From IMG/VR virus record IMGVR_UViG_3300005663_000127, positions 1 to 36,583 of that record: a DNA stretch of 36,583 nucleotides, one strand, 5' to 3'. A program made the position numbers and the translations under genes. Source of the DNA: a virus. Below the pieces are notes generated by a model. It did no database searches. It was given only the letters and a program-made list of their open reading frames with translations, and was not told where the DNA came from. This document shows, piece by piece, positions 3,516-36,583 of this stretch (positions are counted from its first letter, which is position 1; the number at the start of each line of letters is the position of its first letter).

Positions 3516-3788
3516 TTATTCTCCTATTAGGGCACGCCCTGCTGCATTATTTATTGGGATGCCTTGACTCCATAGAATGATTGTTGCGGGTATTTTAACT
3601 TTAACTTCTTGCTGTCGAAGTGTCTCATATAAATTTACAGCATTTTGAATTACTTCTTTCGGCACTAAACGAAATTGCCCATCGCGGCACCATAACACAG
3701 GATTAATTTCTCCACCAGTTAATGCATCGAGAAGGACTTCGGCAAGAAAAATTGTATCACCTGATTCTTTAATTGTGTCTATATTCAT
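3516..3788 (-). CDS. Hypothetical protein, 90 residues
   Basis: Strong ribosome site (AAGGAG, 8 bases before ATG). Mixed alpha/beta composition with no signal peptide and no metal motif; family not recognised. It overlaps the end of the upstream gene by 20 bases and lies 2 bases before the downstream gene, so it is cotranscribed and probably translationally coupled. Confidence 0.6.
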   Translation of the reverse strand: MNIDTIKESGDTIFLAEVLLDALTGGEINPVLWCRDGQFRLVPKEVIQNAVNLYETLRQQEVKVKIPATIILWSQGIPINNAAGRALIGE

Positions 3789-4137
3789 CCCATATTCTCC
3801 TTAATTTACAATATGAAGTGGGGTCGTCCCCACTGAATAACTGATCCCTGGGTGTGCCCTGGGAAAATGTGCCAATCCAATTCCCCCAACATACGTCCCG
3901 CAAAATCCTGATACCGTAATGGTCCCGGTACGCGATTACAGCAACGTACCGGGTCTTACCATGTGCAGATGTAACTCGTATAATCCAACCAGGATGCTCG
4001 GTGGGGGAAACAGGATTGAACCCCCCGAAGAACTCAACCTGGCCCTCGTACAGTGCCCGGACTATGGCTGGCCTTGGACAGTTGTTTTCCAGCCATAGGA
4101 TAATGTGTGTGCGTGATTGGAAGTGGACTTGTTTCAT
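3769..4137 (-). CDS. Hypothetical protein, 122 residues
   Basis: The start overlaps the upstream stop as ATGA, and no independent ribosome site is obvious, so translation probably depends on coupling. The protein opens with a short helix (SRTHIILWLENN) and continues with a beta-rich, Trp/Tyr/Arg-rich region (PGWIIRVTSAHGKTRYVAVIAYRDHYGIRIL). I do not recognise a family; the rich aromatic/basic content would suit nucleic-acid or glycan contact, but that is only an impression. Confidence 0.6.
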   Translation of the reverse strand: MKQVHFQSRTHIILWLENNCPRPAIVRALYEGQVEFFGGFNPVSPTEHPGWIIRVTSAHGKTRYVAVIAYRDHYGIRILRDVCWGNWIGTFSQGTPRDQLFSGDDPTSYCKLRRIWDEYRHN

Positions 4138-4565
4138 AGTGGTTTTACGTTCTTATATATATTCATATTCCCCCAATGCACGATCCCGCCAGTTTTCAGA
4201 TCTATGACGATCACAGGCTTATCATTATTTCCAATGACAAAATCCCTAAACGCATTATCTATTCTTAAAATCAATCGATCATTATCATAACAATGGGTAG
4301 CCAACCTCGCCACCGGCACCGGAATTTCCTTCGGTTTCTCCAACGCCTTAATCGCCTCAAACGATTCTGTGCTGATAGTATTTAACGGCACTATCTTGCC
4401 GTCTACTTCTGCTGTGATTTTAATGTTTGGCATAGTTTTCCTTTCTGAACATTTTTGACATATAAATTGACCATAGCCATTGTCAGTGTAAAATATCATG
4501 TCATCTGCACAAAATAATCCTTCACACTGTACACAATGTTTATGTAATGCGTATTCACTTATCAA
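4134..4565 (-). CDS. Zinc-ribbon N-terminus plus conserved phage domain; possible second start at 4433
   Basis: The longest product (143 residues) starts at TTG 4565, with AAGGAG six bases upstream and a TTGA overlap with the preceding stop. Residues 1-42 carry two Cys pairs (CVQC and CQKC) like a small zinc ribbon. An in-frame ATG at 4433 (MPNIKITAEVDG) has its own strong site (AGAAAGGA, about 7 bases before), so a shorter 99-residue product is also likely. The remainder (PVARLATHCYDNDRLILRIDNAFRDF...) is an alpha/beta domain of unknown function. Either two products come from one frame, or a zinc-ribbon ORF has fused to a downstream gene while keeping its start. Confidence 0.6.
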   Translation of the reverse strand: MISEYALHKHCVQCEGLFCADDMIFYTDNGYGQFICQKCSERKTMPNIKITAEVDGKIVPLNTISTESFEAIKALEKPKEIPVPVARLATHCYDNDRLILRIDNAFRDFVIGNNDKPVIVIDLKTGGIVHWGNMNIYKNVKPL

Positions 4566-5325: not shown

Positions 5326-7611
5326 CTAACTTTTAGGCCGACCCAAGTACACTGAGTAAACCCAGTCCTGTAATTCCAGACCCTTATATGTATATTGTCT
5401 CCTGTCACCAATCTTAGCACGGAAATCTATAATGGTTGGACAGGCTTGTTTTAACCAACGACCGAAGTAAATATTATTGCCAGCTTTGTGCCCTGTCTTG
5501 ACACACCACATCTCCCATGCTTCGTATAACTGACTTTTGGTTGTATAAGCATCTGCACTTTTAACGCAACACTCTTTTACAAATGCTGTCACAGGTGCAG
5601 TTATTTCTGTTAGCTGTTGTAAGAGTGGTTCAGAAGATTTGGGCATGGTGAATCGACCCTGTTCCCTAAGATCTTTCAAACCTTGTAAAGCAAAGTTAAT
5701 GAGTTTACCACCACGGGCCTCTTGGCGTAACCGATCTTTCAAAGTGAAATCTTCTCTGCCAATATATGAATTGGGAAAATTAAGAATTATAGATCTGGCC
5801 ACAAGTGCTTTAGCCGGGTCTGAAAAACCAGGAAGATCATTCATAGCGATAGTAAATCGACAAGTCAGATAAAGATCAAACGGCTGTATATATTTGGGAT
5901 TCACCGTGATTGAATCTCTACCAGTTACTTGTAATATCGTTTGCAACGCAGCATCAGCTTCACCTCTTCTCGGTGTTCTTGCGTCACCAAGTGTGGCGGC
6001 AAGTTTACCTATAAGCGAATACAGTCCATGTGTATTAGCCAACGCCTGAAAGCTTGTAGCATTATACTGATTTTTACCGAGCATACTATGTAGTGTTTCA
6101 AGTATTGTACTTTTGCCTGATCTTGCATCACCGATGAAAATCATTAATTTCTCTTGTGTCATATCCGGCACGAGGTTATAACCGAACCACTGAGCCAATG
6201 CCTGAATACATTCAGTATCTTCATTGAATATCTGATTACAGGTATCTGTATATAGACTGGACCAGGCGTTCTCATCGAAGGCGTAGGGGAAAACATTATA
6301 AGTGAATAATCGTGGGTCGGGATTATGCAATACAATATTATCCTTCATATACTCATTTACATCAAGCATACCGTTCTTGAAAATTATAAGGTTATTTGGG
6401 TGCGGGTGTTCTTCTTTATCGAGCCATACAGGGGGATCTTTTTCTATCGGGCACCATCTATTCATAGCATCGATGATGTCGTTTACTTTAGATCTGGTAG
6501 GTTTATAAGGAACTATATTCTTCACACCCATAACATTTGTTTTTACAAATTGTTTACCCTCAAGAAATTTATATAATTCCCCTTTGAATAATGCTACAGA
6601 TAACTCTTCATAGTGATCTTTAACCCACTGCATCCACTGACCACGATAATTACGAAGTATTGGTATGCCATTAAGCATATGTGATTCATTCATAAACCGT
6701 TCAGCAATAAGAAAAGCCACATCATTTTCAAACACATCAGGATCTATCTCTTTATTTTCGTCACCGTGTTCACCAACATATTCAAACAGTGAAGCTTGGG
6801 TAAGGCCATGCTGTACCCACTGTCGCGTGTCTTTAATATCTTTTGGCGGGAGTATACATTTAATATCTTCAACTGCATCTTTGATGTTAAGAAAGGTTTT
6901 CTGCATTCCTTTCTTACCAGCACCAGCGTCATTGTCACCTATGATCCATACTTCGTGACTCGTAAGAGGCATTTCTTTAAGGATGTCCATACCCCCTTCA
7001 GCAGAAGGCCGACCAATAGCAACGAAACCGAGTGACGCGGCGGCACATACATCACTTGCACCTTCGACAATGATGATGGGAAGTTCAGTTTTGGCAATAA
7101 CTGCTCGGCCTGTTTCCAGTCTTTGACGGCTCGCATCAAGGATATGGAGCCAACCGGAACCCGGCAATTCTTTAACAGCTTTGTTGCTAATACGACTACA
7201 AAGAACCGCAGAAGGATTCTCTGGATCATCGGATGAAACCATACACCAGTCCGGTTTTCCACATATAGGACATATAACACCCGCGTCTGCGATCCGCACC
7301 CAATGGAATTTCCCTGCTTCATATTTTTTATCTCCTATCGCATGGTCTGAATTGTAGGCGTAAATCAGACCACGTTTAGATCCGTGTTCCATAAATTTCT
7401 TGCCGCTGTGGTATCGCTTGAGCAAACCGATGATGTCACCTTTGGCATCACGCTCGGCGAACACCCAAGCATACTCACCAGGATAATAACCGACACCGAG
7501 TGTTTCTAAAGAAGTTACAGTGACACCAAGTTCTTCGGCAAAGTGCTCTAACATGCCAGTGATGACATTATTTTTGAATACTTCAAATTGTTCGGCGAAG
7601 GTTAAATTCAC
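5326..7611 (-). CDS. DNA primase-helicase (Toprim plus D5/P4-type SF3 helicase), 761 residues
   Basis: Three parts can be read. Residues about 114-138 hold four Cys (C114, C117, C123, C138), a probable zinc site. A Toprim domain follows, with E183 in VEGASD and D226/D228 in GDNDAG. The C-terminal third is an SF3-type helicase: Walker A GDARSGKST (494-502), a beta-strand ending at D543 (LGDAR), and sensor-like N591 in IAMNDLPGFSD, as in D5/P4-type primases. The start is GTG 7611, preceded by AGGTGAT and overlapping the stop of a 24-residue membrane peptide (GTGA). Inferred role: unwinding and primer synthesis at the phage fork, working with the family A polymerase encoded in the same leftward unit. 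Confidence 0.93.
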   Translation of the reverse strand: MNLTFAEQFEVFKNNVITGMLEHFAEELGVTVTSLETLGVGYYPGEYAWVFAERDAKGDIIGLLKRYHSGKKFMEHGSKRGLIYAYNSDHAIGDKKYEAGKFHWVRIADAGVICPICGKPDWCMVSSDDPENPSAVLCSRISNKAVKELPGSGWLHILDASRQRLETGRAVIAKTELPIIIVEGASDVCAAASLGFVAIGRPSAEGGMDILKEMPLTSHEVWIIGDNDAGAGKKGMQKTFLNIKDAVEDIKCILPPKDIKDTRQWVQHGLTQASLFEYVGEHGDENKEIDPDVFENDVAFLIAERFMNESHMLNGIPILRNYRGQWMQWVKDHYEELSVALFKGELYKFLEGKQFVKTNVMGVKNIVPYKPTRSKVNDIIDAMNRWCPIEKDPPVWLDKEEHPHPNNLIIFKNGMLDVNEYMKDNIVLHNPDPRLFTYNVFPYAFDENAWSSLYTDTCNQIFNEDTECIQALAQWFGYNLVPDMTQEKLMIFIGDARSGKSTILETLHSMLGKNQYNATSFQALANTHGLYSLIGKLAATLGDARTPRRGEADAALQTILQVTGRDSITVNPKYIQPFDLYLTCRFTIAMNDLPGFSDPAKALVARSIILNFPNSYIGREDFTLKDRLRQEARGGKLINFALQGLKDLREQGRFTMPKSSEPLLQQLTEITAPVTAFVKECCVKSADAYTTKSQLYEAWEMWCVKTGHKAGNNIYFGRWLKQACPTIIDFRAKIGDRRQYTYKGLELQDWVYSVYLGRPKS

Positions 7612-7699: not shown

Positions 7700-7802
7700 G
7701 ATGCTGGCGGGCAGGGCACCAAGGTCACGAACCTTGTGACGGTCTTATCTCGTATGAGCGTTCCGCAGTATGCCCTAAAGCATTCCAGCCGCCGCCAGCA
7801 TC
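7700..7802 (-). ncRNA. Candidate structured RNA with tRNA-like acceptor/T-arm core
   Basis: A 103-base non-coding block in a genome that otherwise packs genes end to end. The ends form a perfect 11-bp stem (7792-7802 with 7700-7710). Inside, on the minus strand, AGGGCAT (7776-7770) pairs with GTGCCCT (7719-7713). Directly abutting the second strand is a 5-bp arm, CAAGG/CCTTG, with the 7-base loop TTCGTGA (7736-7720). That is the geometry of a tRNA acceptor stem stacked on a T arm, but there is no anticodon arm, no CCA, and T-loop position 58 is T instead of A. The outer stem is followed by TATTTTT, so it might also act as an attenuator before the micro-protein and primase-helicase. No named RNA family is recognised. 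Confidence 0.5.
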
Positions 7803-7815
7803 ACACATACATATC

Positions 7816-8769
7816 TTAAAACTTAGCAACACTCTCCAACGTCTTATCCCTAATCATCACCCACTGTTCCGGGGTGACATCTTCTGATACAACATCAGGA
7901 CCAGCAATCTCGGCAATAGCACCATGCCACACTTTACCGATCACTTTATCATTGATAGAAGGATCACGCAGTTCTACAATAGTATTCCACGCTTCGTTCA
8001 TAGTACACGCAGTTTCATCTGGCTTAGCCGGTGGCACTACAGCATCTTTTGATTCTGGTTTCGGTGGTGGACCAGCAGGTGGTGCTGTTACAGCATCAGT
8101 CTTGGCCTTAACCTTAGCCACAGCAGCTTTATTCTTTGCTGACTTAGCAGCCATCTTTTGTGCCTTTACTTCAGGTGAATCAGGTGCGGTATCATCGGCA
8201 GGTACTCGTGCTGGATGTGTCTTAGCCGGAGCTTTGGCAGCAGTAGCTACGGGTTTCGCTGTTGCATTCTTTGCACCCATAGCAGCAAATTGTTTATCTA
8301 AGCTCTTTAACTCAGCAGCATCAAGTTTACGAAGCTGCGTTCCTGGCTCAGCATCATACATATCAATCCAGTTGACCTGATATGGATAGGTGGCCTCTTC
8401 ATAAGTATTCTCACCAATCCTGACCTGAAACTCAAGATCGTCATACTTGCCGTTAGCAAGTTGTATCAATGATCTGCCATCCCAGTTGAATACTTTCTTG
8501 ACCTGATCCATACTAAGCGTGGGTCCAATCTCTCCACCCTTCTTTTTAATGGCACCATAGAGGCACAAGAATGCAGTGATCTCAGCTTCACCGACACCCT
8601 CTATGCCAGTATAGTCAAACCACTTTCCTTCTTTTACATCGTAGACTTCTGTAAGGAGAACTCTTGCATTGAACCACGGTAATTCTATGTCAGTACCTTT
8701 CTTCTTTCTTTTATCAACGCCGTGTTCAAGAAGTTTACATCTGAATGTTCCGATTCTGTCAAGTCCCAT
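7816..8769 (-). CDS. Replication-module protein, possible ssDNA-binding type, 317 residues
   Basis: AAAGGG precedes ATG 8769. The N-terminal 145 residues look folded and beta-rich (IGTFRCKLLEHGVDKRKKKG, FNARVLLTEVYD, LEFQVRIGENTYEEATYPYQVNWID). A long Ala/Lys/Pro linker, about 165-255, follows, then a helical C-terminal segment (CTMNEAWNTIVELRDPSINDKVIGKVWHGAI). A single folded domain with a flexible tail, encoded between the Sak4-like ATPase and primase-helicase genes, is the usual setting of a phage single-strand binding or recombination partner protein. That role is inferred from context; I see no OB-fold signature I can name. Confidence 0.5.
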   Translation of the reverse strand: MGLDRIGTFRCKLLEHGVDKRKKKGTDIELPWFNARVLLTEVYDVKEGKWFDYTGIEGVGEAEITAFLCLYGAIKKKGGEIGPTLSMDQVKKVFNWDGRSLIQLANGKYDDLEFQVRIGENTYEEATYPYQVNWIDMYDAEPGTQLRKLDAAELKSLDKQFAAMGAKNATAKPVATAAKAPAKTHPARVPADDTAPDSPEVKAQKMAAKSAKNKAAVAKVKAKTDAVTAPPAGPPPKPESKDAVVPPAKPDETACTMNEAWNTIVELRDPSINDKVIGKVWHGAIAEIAGPDVVSEDVTPEQWVMIRDKTLESVAKF

Positions 8770-8772
8770 GTT

Positions 8773-8940
8773 TTACCCTTTCATTAAATTGTTGATTTCC
8801 AAAGTATTATTTTCTATATCCTTTTTAGTTTTTTCTAATCTTGTACATAATTTTTCTGTCGGGCGTTTAGTGATTCGATAACATACAAGTAATTGTTCTA
8901 AAACGTCTACCCGTTCCCAAAGTAATTTAACTATATTCAT
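8773..8940 (-). CDS. Small coiled-coil-like protein, 55 residues
   Basis: ATG 8940 has GAAAGGGTGATG upstream. The product has heptad-like leucine spacing (LLWERVDVLEQLL) and a charged C-terminal helix (EKLCTRLEKTKKDIENN), so it is probably a short coiled coil. Its 3' end carries the AAAGGG that serves the next gene at 8769. No family recognised. Confidence 0.55.
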   Translation of the reverse strand: MNIVKLLWERVDVLEQLLVCYRITKRPTEKLCTRLEKTKKDIENNTLEINNLMKG

Positions 8941-8944
8941 CTCA

Positions 8945-9304
8945 TCACCCTTTCAATAAATTTTTACACTTAATACATACTGTACAGTCAGACGGTATCG
9001 GTGTACCACAAGCACACCGTGTTAATCCGGCAGCATCTAACAGTTGGTTCACATCTTTATTCGTGACTGATTCTGGTACAGCATCAGGTTTGTATTTCGC
9101 CATGAATGCTTTGAACTGTTCGTCTGATAAGATCTTACGCTTATGCTGTTCTCTTGCTATTAGTATCGACATATGTTCAAACGCAACACGGTCACAGGCT
9201 GCTGCTTTGCCGGAGTCTAAGTGGCAGTATTTCGCTTTAAGCCCACTGTTACAAGGACACAAACTGTTTCTTTTAGGCTCTGGCCCTTTGAACTTTATAC
9301 CCAT
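8945..9304 (-). CDS. SEC-C motif zinc-binding protein, 119 residues
   Basis: The N-terminus holds a SEC-C type motif, CPCNSGLKAKYCH, about residues 16-28, and the C-terminus a second cysteine cluster (RCACGTPIPSDCTVCIKC). ATG 9304 is chosen because GGAG lies nine bases upstream; a TTG 15 bases further up has no site. Its ribosome site and first bases lie inside the 3' end of the HNH gene. The first eight codons (MGIKFKGP) occur a second time at 9736-9759, just upstream of the HNH gene, so this gene's start was evidently duplicated when the endonuclease gene arrived. Probable nucleic-acid or protein-binding accessory factor. Confidence 0.75.
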   Translation of the reverse strand: MGIKFKGPEPKRNSLCPCNSGLKAKYCHLDSGKAAACDRVAFEHMSILIAREQHKRKILSDEQFKAFMAKYKPDAVPESVTNKDVNQLLDAAGLTRCACGTPIPSDCTVCIKCKNLLKG

Positions 9305-9734
9305 GAGCAAATTCTCCAAAATATTTTATCTCTGCTTTTCGCCGGGCTTGCTTAGCTTCTTGTCTTGTTTTGAATCTTCCAAGATGAATTGATTTATTAT
9401 TAAATCTAATATGAGCTATCCACCCGCCATTATAAAAACCGTATCCTTTGCCGCCATTATTAAAATGGTTTTGTTGAGGTGTGCAAATTCGCAAGTTGTT
9501 TCGTTGATTATTAAGTCCATTACGATTTATATGATCTCCTTGCCGTTTATCACCAAAATCAAGACCTAAAATTAAACGATGCATTTTGAGAAGTCCTCTT
9601 GGTTTCCATATGCTACGACAAGCGTACCAGATATTTCGTTCTTTATGAGCGTGCCATTTCCACTGATTTAACCATTCAAAATCAGCATCATCAACTAAAG
9701 CATATTTACCTTGTGTGAGTTTAATTTTCCTCAT
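9273..9734 (-). CDS. HNH homing endonuclease with AP2-like domain, 153 residues
   Basis: The central part is an HNH core (MHRLILGL, GDHINRNGLNNQRNNLRIC) and the C-terminal part an AP2-type DNA-binding domain (YNGGWIAHIRFNNKSIHLGRFKT, EIKYFGEFA). This is the common free-standing homing-endonuclease layout of phages. The gene sits exactly between two copies of the first codons of the SEC-C gene, and its last 32 bases overlap the working copy out of frame, adding a read-through tail (HGYKVQRARA) beyond the usual YFGEFA ending. Its own ATG (9734) lies just downstream of the upstream copy. It should cut unoccupied alleles and spread by repair. Confidence 0.9.
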   Translation of the reverse strand: MRKIKLTQGKYALVDDADFEWLNQWKWHAHKERNIWYACRSIWKPRGLLKMHRLILGLDFGDKRQGDHINRNGLNNQRNNLRICTPQQNHFNNGGKGYGFYNGGWIAHIRFNNKSIHLGRFKTRQEAKQARRKAEIKYFGEFAHGYKVQRARA

Positions 9735-9759
9735 CTGGTCCTTTGAATTTTATGCCCAT
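9721..9759 (-). pseudogene. Truncated duplicate start of the SEC-C gene (12-codon remnant)
   Basis: The frame begins MGIKFKGP, the same as the SEC-C gene start at 9304, then runs into the HNH gene and stops after four more codons (DEEN). The first 26 bases match the functional copy except at three third-codon positions, all synonymous. It still overlaps the preceding stop as TAATG and still has AAGGTGG upstream, so this was probably the original start before the HNH insertion. Confidence 0.75.
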
Positions 9760-9905
9760 TAGTCACCACCTTCCTGAGCTTGTTTGGGACAATCGTCTTT
9801 CTCGCAATAGTCATTATAGCGAGTAGGAACTTTTATTTTGCATTTACCAGAATCAGCAATATGTTCTTTACATTTTTTATGCAACCATTTTTTATATTCT
9901 TTCAT
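9759..9905 (-). CDS. Small cysteine-containing protein, 48 residues
   Basis: Very basic N-terminus (MKEYKKWLHKKCKEH), then four further polar turns with Cys at 12, 22, 34 and 39, which could bind one zinc. It overlaps the stop of the AAA ATPase gene (start ATG 9905, where ATGA is shared) and the next start as TAATG. Too short for a family assignment; spacing and overlaps support it being translated. Confidence 0.6.
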   Translation of the reverse strand: MKEYKKWLHKKCKEHIADSGKCKIKVPTRYNDYCEKDDCPKQAQEGGD

Positions 9906-10855
9906 CACTCACCACCCCCTTCCTTTGGAATATCACGCCATGCCTCATCGAACAGGAACTTCCAAATTGAATCATCCGCAGGATTGTCAAATGATACTAC
10001 AGGAAATCGATACGGAATAGTCCGTGACTTGGCTTTATAATGAACCTCTGGTGCGTGAACATGAATAATCCTATTGCCGGTTGATGTAGCCTTGGCCACC
10101 TTAGCCTTTTCACTATCTTTAGCAGCTACCACGCCCTCATTACTAATCTTGAGCACATGATCTGCCCACTCACACCACAGGCCCCAGATCGCAGGAGTGG
10201 CACCATGCTTAGGTTGTAATTTGGGTACATCACAGAGATAATCTTCACCACCGGCGTTAGCAATGGAGATCTGATTCATCTGGCAAAGAATACATACGTT
10301 TTTGCCACGCCTGATCAGTGCATCGAAATCTGCAAGAGGCAAACGCATGGTGTCATACAGATGGCGATAGCCTTTACCCCACCCATATTGTTCGATGTTC
10401 TTCATCAGAGTACCCTTGTCACCCGTGACATTCTCCAACATCCAAACAAGTACCCAATCTTCAAGTATATTACCAGTATCAACGACAAGTGTTTCATAAT
10501 CATCAAGAAGATCAGGTTGTTGTGCAGCCATTCTGAAATCATCGAATGTTTCTATACCGGGAATGTATTTTAGTTTTTCACCAGTGACGGGGTGCCGAAT
10601 TTCACGGCCACCATCGTCAAGGCCAGCAAATACAGGTGTGGGCAGCATTGAGGCAAGTGTGGTTTTACCCATACCTGAATCGGCATACTTAATAATCTTC
10701 TTGCCCCCATTATCATCACCCCAAACAGCTACTTGGAATGTCTTATTGACCGTTTTCTGCTGCTGTTGTTTGGCGGCTTTCGGTTTTGCAGACATCACAG
10801 GGGCAAGAGGGGCTTTTGCTAAAGGTTTCTTTGGCGGGGCTTTCGATAATGTCAT
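9905..10855 (-). CDS. Phage AAA (AAA_24, Sak4-like) ATPase, 316 residues
   Basis: ATG 10855 is used because AAGGAG stands six bases upstream; the longer frame from 10906 has no site. After a Lys/Pro/Ala/Gln-rich leader of about 35 residues comes a RecA-like core: strand IIKYADSGMGKTTLA (Walker A), strand ETLVVDTGNI (Walker B) and strand NVCILCQMNQ, the order seen in AAA_24 phage nucleotide-binding proteins of the Sak4 group. These assist single-strand annealing recombination and replication in other phages. The neighbouring putative ssDNA-binding protein and Cas4/RecB-like nuclease fit that use. Its first 113 bases overlap the end of the HD gene in another frame. Confidence 0.85.
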   Translation of the reverse strand: MTLSKAPPKKPLAKAPLAPVMSAKPKAAKQQQQKTVNKTFQVAVWGDDNGGKKIIKYADSGMGKTTLASMLPTPVFAGLDDGGREIRHPVTGEKLKYIPGIETFDDFRMAAQQPDLLDDYETLVVDTGNILEDWVLVWMLENVTGDKGTLMKNIEQYGWGKGYRHLYDTMRLPLADFDALIRRGKNVCILCQMNQISIANAGGEDYLCDVPKLQPKHGATPAIWGLWCEWADHVLKISNEGVVAAKDSEKAKVAKATSTGNRIIHVHAPEVHYKAKSRTIPYRFPVVSFDNPADDSIWKFLFDEAWRDIPKEGGGE

Positions 10856-11462
10856 CTCGTTCTCCTTGTAATTTATGGTATATTTCATCAACTTTACGGC
10901 TGGCACAGTAGTCGACCAGGTGGATTAATTGTGCGAAGGCTTTTCGGTCTGGGGATGGTATATTGTCTGGTCTGTATGCGGGATCAGTTGTCCATATCCC
11001 CATGTGGCCAGCGATTCCTGCAAGTATTCTGGTGCTTACACCCTCACCAGCATCGAGATCTAACATCTTCTTAACCAACGTCACTCCATGCGTCCCTGTC
11101 ACACCTTGTTCAAGTGAATAGCCTTGTGCGTTTAAGCCTTTGCCATTCTTGAGCATGTCATGTAACAGGAGTGTTGCGATAGCCTCATCATACAATAAGT
11201 GATCAGGGATATTATACAATTCCGGTGAGTTACCTAATGCTCTTAACAATTCAAGTCCCCACCACACAGCGAGCTTGGTGTGTCGTACCAGACCACCTAC
11301 ACCAAGTGATACCTGCGGATGGTATTTGCCTGTTGTGCTGCACGGACAGGTCCAGAAGTAATCAGGGCAGAGTTTGTCGAAGCAGTCGATGACAAATTGT
11401 TTGATTTCTTTGGTGTGTATCTGGCTTAGTTCATGTGCAAATATGGTTTCAGCTTTGGTCAT
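10743..11462 (-). CDS. HD-domain phosphohydrolase, 239 residues
   Basis: The metal-binding residues of an HD domain are in order: H61 (GGLVRHTK), H101-D102 (LLLHDMLKNG), H125, H153 (IAGHMG) and D184 (HLVDYCASRK). Family members hydrolyse phosphate esters of nucleotides, so degradation or remodelling of the nucleotide pool or of a nucleotide signal is the likely job. GAGG lies nine bases before ATG 11462, and the start overlaps the upstream stop as ATGA. The C-terminal 38 residues (about 200-239, with CPCDVC) are read over the start of the AAA gene, an unusually long overlap for this genome. Confidence 0.85.
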   Translation of the reverse strand: MTKAETIFAHELSQIHTKEIKQFVIDCFDKLCPDYFWTCPCSTTGKYHPQVSLGVGGLVRHTKLAVWWGLELLRALGNSPELYNIPDHLLYDEAIATLLLHDMLKNGKGLNAQGYSLEQGVTGTHGVTLVKKMLDLDAGEGVSTRILAGIAGHMGIWTTDPAYRPDNIPSPDRKAFAQLIHLVDYCASRKVDEIYHKLQGERDDIIESPAKETFSKSPSCPCDVCKTESRQTTAAENGQ

Positions 11463-17030: not shown

Positions 17031-17191
17031 TCTATCACTCTCCCATTTCTCTTAATCAAACCCTGTTTCATCAACTTATGATACGCCTTTTCAAACTCAC
17101 TGAACGTCATCTTCGTTGTAGCATATTTATCACGCAATGCTCGTTCTTCTTTCGTTGTACTATATGGCCTTGGTTTGCTGCCTTTACCCAT
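17027..17191 (-). CDS. Small conserved phage protein (MGKGSKPRPYS type), 54 residues
   Basis: Starts with MGKGSKPRPYSTTKEE, an N-terminus I have often seen in small phage genes near replication enzymes; function unknown. A C-terminal helix (MTFSEFEKAYHKLMKQG) follows. It overlaps the HNH stop as TAATG and the next start as ATGA. Before the HNH gene arrived it probably followed the metallophosphoesterase directly. Confidence 0.7.
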   Translation of the reverse strand: MGKGSKPRPYSTTKEERALRDKYATTKMTFSEFEKAYHKLMKQGLIKRNGRVIE

Positions 17192-17634
17192 TAGTTACCC
17201 CACCGTTTTGCTGCACCTATATGAGCAGCACACAAACGAGAACAGAATTTTTGATATTCACGCCGCCGTATAAAATGTATACCACAACGAGAACAATTAG
17301 TTTCAGTGCCACGACCCATACCAGTATATCTTTGTGTGTTTTTACTTTGTTCTTTATGTGTCGCCCACCTCAAGTTACCCGGCACATAACCTTTATCATT
17401 ATTTATACGGTCAATAGTGAGGGAATGATTCGTCCATCCCGGCAACGTGCACAGATAAGCAGCAAACCATTCAGGTTGTTTAATCCATTCTTCCCAAACC
17501 TTAATTCCTCTGCCGCCATAAGCATTATAATTTATTACTAATGGATTACCACACCTATCAATAGCATGATGTACGGCATTGATAATTTTTCTTAGGTGTT
17601 TGGCCGGAACCCAATATTTTTTATTTCTGCCCAT
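17191..17634 (-). CDS. HNH endonuclease with C-terminal zinc motif, 147 residues
   Basis: Central motifs are NAYGGRGIKVWEEW and LTIDRINNDKGYVPGNLRWATHKEQSKN, typical of phage HNH homing endonucleases. The C-terminus adds four cysteines (CSRC...FCSRLC) that fit a zinc finger used for DNA recognition. The gene overlaps the end of the metallophosphoesterase by 14 bases and the next start by one (TAATG). It is unrelated in layout to the AP2-type HNH at 9273-9734, so two independent invasions of this replication unit are likely. Confidence 0.9.
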   Translation of the reverse strand: MGRNKKYWVPAKHLRKIINAVHHAIDRCGNPLVINYNAYGGRGIKVWEEWIKQPEWFAAYLCTLPGWTNHSLTIDRINNDKGYVPGNLRWATHKEQSKNTQRYTGMGRGTETNCSRCGIHFIRRREYQKFCSRLCAAHIGAAKRWGN

Positions 17635-19381: not shown

Positions 19382-19759
19382 TTAAAATTTATGTATAACA
19401 TCTGCATCCATATCAGGACTATAACTCAACACTCTGCCTTTCGACTCGGTGAAACAAGCTCCCTTACCCTTCGCTCTTTGTAACGCTTTATATATCGAAT
19501 CGGGAGTTGCTTCAAAATGTTCTGCTATTTCTTCGACAGACCAACCCTCAACATAATACAGGTGGTGTCGCTCTGCTTCCAGCCTGGTTAATATCGGGAA
19601 AAAATGCGGGAAAGCTTCCTCAACACGCTTTAGTGCGTCCGATATTACCGATTGGCTAACGCCCAGTTTTTTTGCTGCTTCTGTTTGGCTTAGGCTATCA
19701 AAATCATGGTGTACTAATCTTAATATCTGCTCTTGTCTCTTTGTTATAACTCGTTTCAT
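19382..19759 (-). CDS. Sigma-region-4-like HTH regulator, 125 residues
   Basis: Two helix-turn-helix units are apparent: SLSQTEAAKKLGVSQSVISDALKRVEE (about 22-48) and WSVEEIAEHFEATPDSIYKALQRAK (about 73-97), both in the style of sigma-70 region 4. The rest is short: a basic start (KRVITKRQEQILRL) and an acidic end (YSPDMDADVIHKF). It has a paralogue at 20164-20556 with a matching start (RQEQI) and end (HKF). AGAGGG, part of the 36-base duplicated element, forms its ribosome site. A transcription factor for phage promoters is the likely role. Confidence 0.75.
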   Translation of the reverse strand: MKRVITKRQEQILRLVHHDFDSLSQTEAAKKLGVSQSVISDALKRVEEAFPHFFPILTRLEAERHHLYYVEGWSVEEIAEHFEATPDSIYKALQRAKGKGACFTESKGRVLSYSPDMDADVIHKF

Positions 19760-20163: not shown

Positions 20164-20556
20164 TTAAAATTTATGTGTAACTTTAGAATCCATCCACGGA
20201 GAATATGTATCTACTCTATGAAGACAATTAGGTTGAAGATATATTCCCTTTTTACGCATATAATATACTGTACGAGCAGCGGTTTGCCATGTGACTCCCA
20301 GGTACTTACTGATCTTCGGATGTGTCATACCCATTACTTCGCGTAAAATATATATATCCATCTGTCGCGGTGTGAGAATAGGAAAAAGTTGTGGAGCTAT
20401 CCTCTGCATCTTACGCATATGACTGTTGATACATTTCAATGAGACACCGAGCATCGCCGCTACCTGCTTTGTAGTTAAGCCGCCGAAATCGTGATGCCGC
20501 ATCCGGTATATCTGTTCCTGGCGGTGTGATATGAGTCGTCTCAATGTACTACCCAT
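20164..20556 (-). CDS. Second sigma-region-4-like HTH regulator, 130 residues
   Basis: A paralogue of the protein at 19382-19759. Shared landmarks are RQEQI, HHDF, a first HTH (LTTKQVAAMLGVSLKCINSHMRKMQ), the FPILT linker, a second HTH (MTHPKISKYLGVTWQTAARTVYYM) and the terminal YSP-MD-HKF. It overlaps the end of the upstream gene by 16 bases and has no strong ribosome site of its own. The two proteins may act on different promoters or as partners. Confidence 0.75.
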   Translation of the reverse strand: MGSTLRRLISHRQEQIYRMRHHDFGGLTTKQVAAMLGVSLKCINSHMRKMQRIAPQLFPILTPRQMDIYILREVMGMTHPKISKYLGVTWQTAARTVYYMRKKGIYLQPNCLHRVDTYSPWMDSKVTHKF

Positions 20557-25196: not shown

Positions 25197-25511
25197 CTAA
25201 CTACAAACGGCTTCGATTAACATTTCTTCTTGATCTTCTGTCATACTGCCATAAGTTTTTAATTCGTATTCTTTGGCAATAAATGTTTTACCGTCAATTT
25301 TTCGACTGTCAATAGTCTCAATAGTCATAACAGCACCTATTAACGATTCATAACCCATTCCACTGTCAAGTGAACCGTCTTTGATTCCATTCAGTATTTG
25401 TTTGTGTAATCCTGTTATGCTGTTGTCTGTTAGTGTTTCGGCAGCATAACCATTAACTCCGTCGCCCCAACAATTACCCAACACTATGCCTGTTGCTTTG
25501 TGTGTAATCAT
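25197..25511 (-). CDS. Hypothetical protein, 104 residues
   Basis: ATG 25511 (MITHKATGIVLGNCWGDGVNGYAAETL) has TGAGG six bases upstream. The Gly-rich start and the segment LIGAVMTIETIDSRKIDGKTFIAKEYEL suggest a beta-rich fold. The N-terminal pattern seems conserved among small phage proteins, but I cannot name the family. It is transcribed from the promoter at 25552-25580. Confidence 0.6.
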   Translation of the reverse strand: MITHKATGIVLGNCWGDGVNGYAAETLTDNSITGLHKQILNGIKDGSLDSGMGYESLIGAVMTIETIDSRKIDGKTFIAKEYELKTYGSMTEDQEEMLIEAVCS

Positions 25512-25551
25512 TTTCATCCTCACTTTCTGTTAGCCACTATTGACTATGTAA

Positions 25552-25745: not shown

Positions 25746-25774
25746 ATTGTATCATATCCGGTATTGGTTGTCAA
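25746..25774 (-). promoter_or_regulatory. Consensus sigma-70-type promoter, leftward
   Basis: TTGACA (25774-25769), 17 bases, TACAAT (25751-25746). It lies directly beside the first TACCCAGAC-type site (25787), so that array could modulate it. Confidence 0.75.
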
Positions 25775-25786
25775 GTCTTAAATTCG

Positions 25787-26147
25787 GTCTGGGTATAAAT
25801 AATCTACCCAGACGTGATAACTGTGATACTGGTCTAATATGGCGGTTGTGTCTATGTATGTCTGGGTATAAAATAGTTACCCAGACACTTGTAAACTCTT
25901 GATAGTGTTGGCCTTATGGCTGATTATGGTCTATATGTCTATATACTCTTTATAATTAGCTATTAGTAATATATAGGGATAGTAGGGTATAGGTAGCTAA
26001 CCGTTATAAGCGTTAAGTATATATATATAAGTCTCTGACCGATTCTACCCAGACTACCCAGACACGGGTTATAAGTCGTTGTGTTGTAAGGATTTATATG
26101 CGTCTGGGTACGAAAATCTACCCAGACTTATATAGACATACCCAGGC
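25787..26147. repeat. TACCCAGAC/GTCTGGGTA array, candidate origin or operator
   Basis: Eight exact nine-base sites plus one near-match (TACCCAGGC at 26139). They form inverted pairs at 25787-25813, 25860-25886 (both with nine-base spacers) and 26102-26127 (eight), and a direct tandem pair at 26046-26063. The stretch 25900-26040 between pairs is very rich in A and T (TATATATATA-type steps). No gene covers it. Repeated sites plus an AT-rich unwinding-like zone at the divergence of the two transcription arms are typical of a replication origin or of a multi-site regulator target. The binding protein is not identified. Confidence 0.7.
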
Positions 26148-26247: not shown

Positions 26248-26289
26248 AACAGCCGGTCAGTTATCGTCCCTGATAACCAACCGGCTGTT
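26248..26289. terminator. Long hairpin, 18-bp stem, probable terminator
   Basis: AACAGCCGGT and ACCGGCTGTT form the base of an 18-bp stem (with two G-U pairs on the RNA), closed by a six-base loop. It follows the end of the leftward small genes at 26312 and separates them from the repeat array. A strong U-run is lacking on both strands, so factor-independent termination is plausible but not sure. Confidence 0.55.
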
Positions 26290-27053: not shown

Positions 27054-27575
27054 ATGAAAATGCAAGAATACCGCGGGATCTTGAAGAAGTGCACCCCAGT
27101 CGAATATCAGTACAGTGATTGGATGGGTGATTGCCAACAAATGTTGGTCCAAACTTTACACCTTGGTGGCCTTGCGGTTTCTATAGATATAAAAGAGTTA
27201 GACGACAAAACAGATGATGAGATAAAGGAACTTATCAAGGATAGGATGCTTATTGCTTTACATAATGCCATAGTGAGATTATGCCCGACTTATTTCACAG
27301 GACAAAGAAAACACATGATCGAACCACTAAAAGACAATGTAGTAGTTAAACCTGCCAAAGCATCTGAAACAACTCCGGGCGGGATTATCATTCCTGATCG
27401 TGCACAAAAAGATCCTAAATTTGGTGTAGTTGAGTCTGTTGGTCCCGATGTTGAAGCTCTTAAACCAGGTGATACTGTATTGTTGCCAGGTTGGGATGAT
27501 GCGACATTAGAGATCGATGGCGAAAAATATATTGTACTCGCAGAGAAAGCTATAAGTGTGAGGATCTCTGAATGA
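27054..27575 (+). CDS. Co-chaperonin GroES domain with N-terminal extension, 173 residues
   Basis: Residues about 88-173 are a GroES/Cpn10 domain: EPLKDNVVVKPAKASE, a mobile loop with GGIIIP (the III triplet matching the IVL that binds GroEL), FGVVESVGPDVEALKPGDTVLLPGWDDATLEIDGEKYIVLAEKAISVRI. The first 87 residues (MKMQEYRGIL...KDRMLIALHNAIVRL) are unrelated and unknown. GAGAGG lies seven bases before ATG 27054, while the internal ATG before the GroES domain has no good site, so it is made as a fusion. Phage co-chaperonins (T4 gp31 is the model) pair with host GroEL to fold capsid protein, and this gene heads the capsid operon. Confidence 0.9.
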   Translation: MKMQEYRGILKKCTPVEYQYSDWMGDCQQMLVQTLHLGGLAVSIDIKELDDKTDDEIKELIKDRMLIALHNAIVRLCPTYFTGQRKHMIEPLKDNVVVKPAKASETTPGGIIIPDRAQKDPKFGVVESVGPDVEALKPGDTVLLPGWDDATLEIDGEKYIVLAEKAISVRISE

Positions 27576-28483: not shown

Positions 28484-28824
28484 TGCCAGCAAATGAAACG
28501 TTTTCCTGTGATAACAGTGGAAACCGCACAGGACCACACCCAGATATTAGTGATCCGGTTCTTGGTACCGGACAGAGTGTTGTGGCGGGATCTAAGGATA
28601 TTGATGGGATAATTACTGTTATCGCCGGTAAGTCATACGCGGTTACATCATTGATCGGTTCTCATATATTTGGTATTGCAACACTTGCTACAGCAACGAA
28701 TATCGTGTGGGCTGTCGGTGCGGGGCGTACTATCGTAATCAGAGTTCCGTTTGGTTACACAACGTTGTATTATCAGACACCGGATAATTCGCGTAGGTTC
28801 ATTTTAAGGGAACTGGCAGGATGA
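28483..28824 (+). CDS. Putative virion-module protein, 113 residues
   Basis: TAATG overlap with the gene above. The protein is beta-rich and Gly/Thr/Ser-rich (HPDISDPVLGTGQSVVAGSKDI, GKSYAVTSLIGSHIFGIATLATATNIVWAVGAGRTIVIRVPFGYTTLYY), the composition of small head-decoration or head-tail proteins. No signature settles it. Confidence 0.5.
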   Translation: MPANETFSCDNSGNRTGPHPDISDPVLGTGQSVVAGSKDIDGIITVIAGKSYAVTSLIGSHIFGIATLATATNIVWAVGAGRTIVIRVPFGYTTLYYQTPDNSRRFILRELAG

Positions 28825-29219
28825 AAGACGATCACGGCAAAAAAGTAATAGCCGGTAAACTGCTCTCGAAATTCATCCGAGAGATTGCCAGCGAAGAATA
28901 TGATGATCCGATCATCAAAGCCAGAGGTGAAGAGGCTGTGATGGTGACTAAGGCTGAAGCCATTGCAAGGCATATATGGAATGTGGCTCTCGGTTATGTA
29001 GAGGAAGTTGATATACACAAGGATGGAGTTAAGACAGGCGTTAAACTGGAAACCCACAGACCGGATAAATGGGCGATTAATATTATCTGGGATCGAATGG
29101 AAGGCAGGGTAGGTCAGGCAGATGCTAAGGCGAGTAGTGACAAGGCGAGTCTTGCTGATAAAGTATCTGAACAGGGCAAGAAACGTCTGGCCCAGATAGC
29201 GAAACAGAGTATCAAATGA
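28821..29219 (+). CDS. Putative small terminase subunit, 132 residues
   Basis: Helical, with a possible HTH in VTKAEAIARHIWNVALGY (about 41-58) and a second segment, PDKWAINIIWDRMEGRVGQADA. It lies two small genes before TerL, the usual place of TerS. The WxxxxxWDRMEGRVGQ region resembles DUF5681-type phage proteins near terminases. It overlaps the gene above (ATGA) and the one below. Role from context, medium confidence. Confidence 0.6.
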   Translation: MKDDHGKKVIAGKLLSKFIREIASEEYDDPIIKARGEEAVMVTKAEAIARHIWNVALGYVEEVDIHKDGVKTGVKLETHRPDKWAINIIWDRMEGRVGQADAKASSDKASLADKVSEQGKKRLAQIAKQSIK

Positions 29220-35320: not shown

Positions 35321-36442
35321 ATGGCTGGAACAAAGAATGCAGATTTGATTGACTTGATTGCAACTACTCTGCCAAATCTCCCTGAGCAATACTTTGAGGT
35401 AACGTGGACGAACAACGACTACGAAGCCTGCCGTATCTATCAGAGAGAACGGATGGAAATTGACGGCGGGACTTCAATCAAACGTAAAGTTATGTTTAGC
35501 CCGACCGGAAATGCTCGGTATCGCAGACTTTTCGATACTGATGATCCTGCTGTGTCGGATGTGATGGTTGAAATTGATGTACCCTGGACTCAGATAGGTA
35601 CACATTATTCTTGGGATATTCTTGAGATTAAGCGTAATGCTAATTCCGCAAGGGGATTCATTCGTTTACTCGAAACCAGACGGATCGATGGCCTGTGGAG
35701 TCTTGCAGATTTGATCGAAGAGCGTTTCTGGAAAACCCCGGATAGTTCAACCGATGATTTGAATCCATATGGTGTGCCGTACTACCTCAATATGTTAGAT
35801 GTAGGTGGGACAACTGCTGGTTTCAATGGAAAAAATGTTGTTTTCGGAGATAGGAGTCTAAGTGTTACTTGTGCAGGTATTAGTACAACCACTGAGCCGA
35901 GATGGGCTAACTGGGCGGCTGTTTATACGAAGGTGGACAATGCTTTACTTGAGGCTTTTCGTTTAGCTTTTACGAGAACCAAATTCAAAGCTCCGTTGAT
36001 TATCAACGATCCGTCACAGGCACGTAATGCTGCCAAGAGAGTTTATTGTAACAGTGATACTATCGTGAAGTTACAGGTATTAGCTGATGCAAGAGATGAT
36101 TTCCATCGTGGTAAAGATGTACTTGGCAATATTCGTATCGATGATGGTGCTACAGTGTATCTGAATCGTTTGCCGGTTGTCTATATTACTCAGCTTGATG
36201 ATGCACAAGTTGCACCCACAGGTGCCGCTTCTGCAACCATGGAAGTAGATCCGATCTATTGTGTGGACTTCGAGAAGTTCATCCCTTATGTTCAGGATGG
36301 TTACTGGATGGAAGAGGGTGAGCCGATGACTGATAGACTTCAGCATACGACTTTCACTATCTTCCTGGATGGCTCTCATAATAACCTGTGCGTCAATCGT
36401 AGACAAGCGGGCTTTGTCCTCCATAAACCCATTGTGGCTTAA
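35321..36442 (+). CDS. Major capsid protein (HK97-like), 373 residues
   Basis: The strong ribosome site AAAGGAG lies six bases before ATG 35321. The product has the mixed alpha/beta organisation expected of HK97-fold capsid proteins: an N-terminal arm (PEQYFEVTWTNNDYEACRIYQRE), RIDGLWSLADLIEERFWKTP, a central spine-helix-like segment (YTKVDNALLEAFRLAFTRTKFKAPLII), GKDVLGNIRIDDGATVYLNRLPVVY and a Phe/Leu-rich end (FTIFLDGSHNNLCVNRRQAGFVLHKPI). Length and position after the scaffold are typical. No delta-domain propeptide is visible, in keeping with a separate scaffold. Confidence 0.85.
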   Translation: MAGTKNADLIDLIATTLPNLPEQYFEVTWTNNDYEACRIYQRERMEIDGGTSIKRKVMFSPTGNARYRRLFDTDDPAVSDVMVEIDVPWTQIGTHYSWDILEIKRNANSARGFIRLLETRRIDGLWSLADLIEERFWKTPDSSTDDLNPYGVPYYLNMLDVGGTTAGFNGKNVVFGDRSLSVTCAGISTTTEPRWANWAAVYTKVDNALLEAFRLAFTRTKFKAPLIINDPSQARNAAKRVYCNSDTIVKLQVLADARDDFHRGKDVLGNIRIDDGATVYLNRLPVVYITQLDDAQVAPTGAASATMEVDPIYCVDFEKFIPYVQDGYWMEEGEPMTDRLQHTTFTIFLDGSHNNLCVNRRQAGFVLHKPIVA

Positions 36443-36445
36443 CCA

Positions 36446-36464
36446 ACACCAATCATGTTGGTGT
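36446..36464 (+). terminator. Short hairpin after capsid gene
   Basis: ACACCAA and TTGGTGT flank five bases, four bases past the capsid stop. Without a U-run it is a weak terminator; it may protect the 3' end of capsid mRNA or reduce read-through. A second small hairpin (TAGGG/CCCTA) follows near 36483-36501. Confidence 0.4.
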
Positions 36465-36520
36465 AACTGAAATATTAACCTGGTAGGGTATGATAGCCCT
36501 ATTGACAACAGGAGAATAAA

Positions 36521-36583
36521 ATGAGTAGAATACAAAATATGGGTGTGGGTGCCTATGATGTTGGTTGCCGCACTAAACGAGTT
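36521..36583 (+). CDS. Start of next virion gene (partial, 21 residues)
   Basis: AGGAG stands before ATG 36521. Only MSRIQNMGVGAYDVGCRTKR and one more residue are in the window; the gene runs off the end. Being after the capsid gene it is probably a head-to-tail or head-decoration gene, but the fragment is too short to name. Confidence 0.6.
   Translation, partial: MSRIQNMGVGAYDVGCRTKRV

Follow-up and report, generated by a model that had tools for sequence, protein, structure and literature searches.

Published PICI origins have an AT-rich region with an iteron set on either side (PMC6092414). SaPI Rep and Cch2 bind their iterons via the C-terminal domain (PMC7581432), and, as related in PMC4234260 with reference to Yeo 2002, P4 alpha binds short origin repeats through a C-terminal winged helix. 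For most uncultured phages, the origin has not been mapped. Here we describe a locus at which both a probable origin and its likely initiator can be named from sequence. It lies on a 36,583-bp IMG/VR contig (the window, meaning the whole stretch analyzed), which belongs to an uncultured phage family. Taken together, the data make it probable that the repeat array of this phage is an iteron origin of the P4/SaPI type, bound by the phage's own primase-helicase via an RFX-like winged helix.

Results

The phage genome and its relatives

The window encodes a family-A DNA polymerase (PolA), a D5/P4-type primase-helicase, a Sak4-like protein, a GroES-like protein, a terminase and a portal protein; the major capsid gene had no family match and was assigned by position. 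No near relatives were found among deposited phages, and neither the island nor 24 kb of the window had a match in phage records searched at the nucleotide level. The relatives are uncultured contigs, together with a small number of contigs from MAG bins, and the family comprises hundreds of contigs.

Some further features of these genomes were noted. The GroES-like gene opens the rightward unit, and its co-chaperonin domain follows an extra N-terminal region of approximately 86 residues. Two HNH endonuclease genes, possibly of the homing type, are present in some relatives only. PolA matches fall in two adjacent pieces in G003 (9365-11417), G031 (39218-41965), G034 (7701-9669) and G035 (35306-38104), which suggests that the gene is split or interrupted there. 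Finally, the window (ends at 1-55 and 36442-36583) and G002 both begin just ahead of the gene for a 1018-aa protein and both end just past the capsid-position gene, as if a tail module common to coexisting strains lay between the ends and broke the assembly of both.

Two sets of 9-bp sites flank an AT-rich segment

Of all repeat clusters in the window, the strongest is an array of the 9-bp site TACCCAGAC. The eight exact copies reported in the initial annotation were confirmed by count: 0.18 are expected, and no shuffle reached eight. All of them lie within 25787-26127, and the rest of the window has none. They form a left and a right set (Table 1). The inverted pairs of the left set (25787-25813 and 25860-25886) are separated by 73 bp. 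Spacers of 8 to 9 bases had been described throughout; this holds for the three inverted pairs (9, 9 and, in the right set, 8 bp) but not for the tandem pair, which is contiguous (spacer 0). The near-match noted previously is TACCCAGGC, a copy with one mismatch. Furthermore, two degenerate sites absent from the earlier description were found, GTCTATGTA 1 bp before the next site and GTCTATATA inside the AT-rich segment. The latter is conserved in 7 of the 9 aligned relatives, and the other two have GTCTAGGTA and GTCTACATA.

Between the left set and the right lies the 100-bp stretch with the highest AT content of the region. Two short-repeat sets flanking an AT-rich region, as in P4/SaPI-type origins, are thus present in the window and likewise in relatives.

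Table 1. Positions of the array, its flanks and the genes considered in the window
Feature	Position	Strand	Remarks
TACCCAGAC sites	25787(-), 25805(+), 25860(-), 25878(+), 26046(+), 26055(+), 26102(-), 26119(+)		exact match
Left iteron set	25787-25886		two inverted pairs GTCTGGGTA-N9-TACCCAGAC; degenerate GTCTATGTA at 25850
AT-rich segment, proposed unwinding element	25930-26029		74% AT (window, 59%); holds GTCTATATA at 25937
Right iteron set	26046-26147		tandem pair 26046-26063; inverted pair 26102-26127; near-match TACCCAGGC 26139-26147
Leftward sigma-70-type promoter, TTGACA-17-TACAAT	25746-25774	-	consensus match only, 11/12 positions
GC-rich hairpin AGCCGG...CCGGCT	26248-26289	-	~100 bp past the last site; form conserved in most relatives
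D5/P4-type primase-helicase, proposed initiator	5326-7611	-	present in every relative long enough to show it
C-terminal winged helix, residues 690-748, proposed iteron-binding domain	5368-5544	-	Pfam, model, Foldseek
HNH endonuclease genes	9273-9734, 17191-17634	-	
Tandem-HTH protein	19382-19759		
Paralogue of tandem-HTH protein	20164-20556		
GroES-like gene	27054-27575	+	
TerS-like gene (putative small terminase subunit)	28821-29219		

Promoter, hairpin and GC skew around the array

The -35 element of the leftward promoter starts 13 bp from the first TACCCAGAC site, and in several relatives, similar promoters (by consensus match only) were found near the left end of the array. We speculate that the primase-helicase may also control this promoter in the window. 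The genes to the right of the array are small leftward ORFs up to approximately 27 kb, not rightward genes; the array is therefore a non-coding island within leftward transcription and is not exactly at the divergence point. The hairpin is terminator-like with respect to the small leftward ORFs on its right. In most relatives, a hairpin of this type with a variable loop is located 67-181 bp to the right of the array; its stem letters differ between genomes, and the pairing is preserved.

A GC-skew signal had been suggested as a check for an origin. Along the window, GC skew did not single out the array; its sign flips at approximately 27 kb, where transcription switches, and this speaks against an origin at the array. 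In the segment on the right side of the array, the skew has the sign of the leftward genes, and for this reason we rejected it as origin evidence; since it follows transcription, we regard the check as uninformative.

The array keeps its place in relatives while its motif changes

More than 15 relatives, which span 91% to 53% terminase identity, carry an array at the equivalent place, 3-6 kb upstream of the terminase. Where the homologous island is present ahead of the terminase module, it usually contains an array, and in most of the arrays read, an AT-rich stretch lies between two site sets. The layout is kept while the site sequence changes in concert and differs by lineage (TACCCAGAC, TACCTAGAC, TACATAGAC, TAGGTGGAT, CTATGGACA, TTACCTAG and TTGTGGCAT). 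TACCCAGAC was found in the window, G002/L012, G003/L016 and L018; TACCTAGAC in G001/L011; TACATAGAC in G014/L057; and mixed TATATAGAC/GAGGTAGAC-like sites in G005/L023, L013, L014 and L022. The other motifs were TTAGGTGGATA (G015/L063), TTTGTGGCAT, also given as TTGTGGCAT (L021), TGTCTGGAC (L029), TACTGTACTAA (L043), CTATGGACA (G034), CYGGGACA (G035), TTATAGGAC and CCTGGAC (G012), TTACCTAG (L271), GCATAGAACA (L278) and TGTGCCAT (L280). In G012, where the array is at 2269-2820, further repeat clusters of TTATCGGAC and AACGTGGGA were seen at 3516-3956 and 3993-4550.

In an alignment of nine sequences, the sites are in register and their letters vary in concert, with the GAC end most constant. 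Invariant columns were enriched in the exact sites (16/72, versus 40/429 outside; P = 0.004), as were invariant G/C columns (P = 0.0004); the invariance is mainly at the GAC end. The stronger P value obtained when degenerate sites are included should be discounted, because these sites were picked after the alignment had been seen. A lack of conservation in relatives had been named as a result that would refute the interpretation, and the comparison did not refute it: the positions are kept and the letters drift in concert. A clear array was not seen in the relatives G009, G011 and G031, which counts against an origin function. When all viral contigs were scanned for the inverted pair, it occurred at more than one place only in the already known relatives, and the remaining matches were single and chance-like.

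Two candidate arrays were rejected. The strongest clusters of Salmonella phage 9NA, which has a related helicase domain, are coding repeats, and the cluster of G037 is an Ala/Tyr/Asp-rich coding repeat, so G037 was left out of the array count. Such a coding repeat is present in both 9NA gp10 (L227:3128-3736) and G037 (25250-25540), and, although these phages are distant, it is located in both in the gene region adjoining the terminase module.

The drift of the motif inside one phage family suggests a phage-encoded binder drifting alongside, and its turnover between close phages makes it less likely that a host protein recognizes the sites. We therefore give very little credence to a host-encoded binding protein, and as little to a partition or centromere-like site. 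A parS-like locus would be consistent with inverted sites clustered in a non-coding island, but there are no partition genes among the window products read.

The winged helix of the primase-helicase and the motif

Pfam analysis of the primase-helicase revealed a Pox_D5 match and a sub-threshold RFX match. The AlphaFold model (mean pLDDT, 82) has a C-terminal winged helix, the best Foldseek matches of which are the DNA-binding domains of RFX5 (E = 2.7e-4) and RFX1 (E = 9.7e-4). Thus, as in P4/SaPI-type systems, a cognate primase-helicase is encoded on the same element, and it has a C-terminal winged-helix DNA-binding domain, as predicted by AlphaFold and Foldseek.

The winged helices of the window, G002 and G003, which all have TACCCAGAC, are 93-100% identical, while those of the TACCCAGAC genomes are 57-84% identical to those of G001, G014 and G005, which have other motifs. 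The primase half shows a flat 70-82% identity, with no step matching the motif groups. G003 and the window have the motif and the winged helix in common, but their PolA, metallophosphoesterase and HTH125 proteins are only 73%, 55% and 56% identical. An array on L019/L020 could not be assigned to the G022 primase-helicase from the same sample: the contigs do not overlap.

When 927 sequence windows of the shared proteins were scanned, the TerS-like protein ranked first and the winged helix second; high-scoring TerL windows were an artefact of the G005 record, which is split in two pieces. In a partial Mantel test with seven genomes, significance was reached for no protein. The winged helix was second of 18 (r = 0.32, P = 0.17), and this P value weighs against the origin. 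The covariation of motif and winged helix is accordingly suggestive, not proven.

The first rank of the TerS-like protein bears on the possibility that the array is a packaging site. In cosB, repeated sites mark DNA for packaging. Here, the small terminase subunit would bind the array, which is 2.7 kb upstream of its gene, and mark the DNA in this way. Among the three TACCCAGAC genomes, identity of the TerS-like protein is 88-94%, versus 65-73% to others, and the protein fits this grouping at least as well as the winged helix; its model weakly resembles the SPP1-type small terminase core. However, the motif tracks this protein only within the three-genome group and fails to do so for L021: the L021 motif (TTGTGGCAT) is wholly different, yet its TerS-like protein is ordinary (60-77% identical, as any pair) and has a conserved N terminus. 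Furthermore, the model is without a recognized DNA-binding domain, and two sets around an AT-rich segment are not expected for a packaging site. We consider packaging unlikely.

The array could also be a multi-operator switch. The tandem-HTH protein, its paralogue or another phage regulator would then bind it and so regulate the adjacent leftward early promoter. Both tandem-HTH proteins have sigma-70 region-4-like HTH domains, and a copy is present in nearly every relative. Nevertheless, the motif does not follow the recognition helices of the regulator: G003 has the motif of the window, but the recognition helices of its HTH125 protein differ, and this protein is no closer to that of the window than are those of relatives with other motifs. 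We therefore rejected the tandem-HTH protein as the carrier of specificity. In line with this, HTH125 was close to the bottom of the partial Mantel ranking, and a 360-bp array with at least nine sites around an AT-rich core exceeds the need of one promoter. Such a switch seems to us quite improbable.

Among the binders suggested in the initial annotation, the primase-helicase is the best supported, while the HTH proteins and the 317-residue protein are not. From these comparisons, it is the best candidate for binding the sites, probably via its C-terminal winged helix.

Discussion

The initial annotation had offered an origin or operators. The origin is better supported, by the conserved two-set layout, the motif turnover in place and the P4/SaPI-type primase-helicase with its winged helix. 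Beyond what was seen directly in the sequences and the model, we infer binding, melting and initiation at the array. The primase-helicase would bind the 9-bp sites with its RFX-like C-terminal winged helix, assemble on both site sets flanking the AT-rich segment and then melt this segment. It would load as a helicase, encircling and unwinding the DNA, and prime synthesis, which the family-A DNA polymerase could extend.

We also put forward, more tentatively and with somewhat less than even confidence, that the origin architecture is kept while iteron and winged helix change together, giving rise to coexisting relatives with mutually exclusive origins. If true, this would provide a natural series for reading the DNA-recognition code of RFX-type winged helices. 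With its variants of motif and winged helix, the series allows a direct test of specificity in D5/P4-type initiators, and it could explain replication exclusion between coexisting relatives.

It had been stated that no known phage origin matches this locus. This is correct for the sequence but not for the layout, which fits origins of the P4/SaPI/PICI type. Like the window, SaPIs and PICIs (Pri-Rep and ori) have two iteron sets around an AT-rich region. Their helicase, in many cases joined to a primase, recognizes the iterons through its C terminus, as is predicted here. As in the phage family, their iteron sequences vary between elements (PMC6092414, PMC7581432). However, they are satellites, whereas the window represents a tailed-phage family, and the sites of the window are largely inverted pairs with 8- to 9-bp spacers. 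Moreover, their ori is directly downstream of the initiator gene, while the array is approximately 18 kb away from the primase-helicase gene. This distance counts against the origin, since SaPI origins adjoin their initiator genes, and we claim membership in the mechanism class only, not in the PICI replicon family.

P4 alpha is likewise a primase-helicase with a C-terminal winged helix (predicted in the window protein), although P4, too, is a satellite. In a solved-structure search, P4 alpha gave no sequence match to the window primase-helicase, and 1KA8 was absent among the listed fold matches of the winged helix. SCCmec Cch2 is, like the window protein, a D5-type helicase, and its isolated C-terminal domain binds direct repeats (PMC7581432); its iterons are three short direct repeats, whereas the sites of the window are longer, largely inverted and number about nine to eleven. 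In summary, the probable origin is ordinary in its mechanism class; what is unusual is its distance from the initiator gene and the visible turnover of its iterons.
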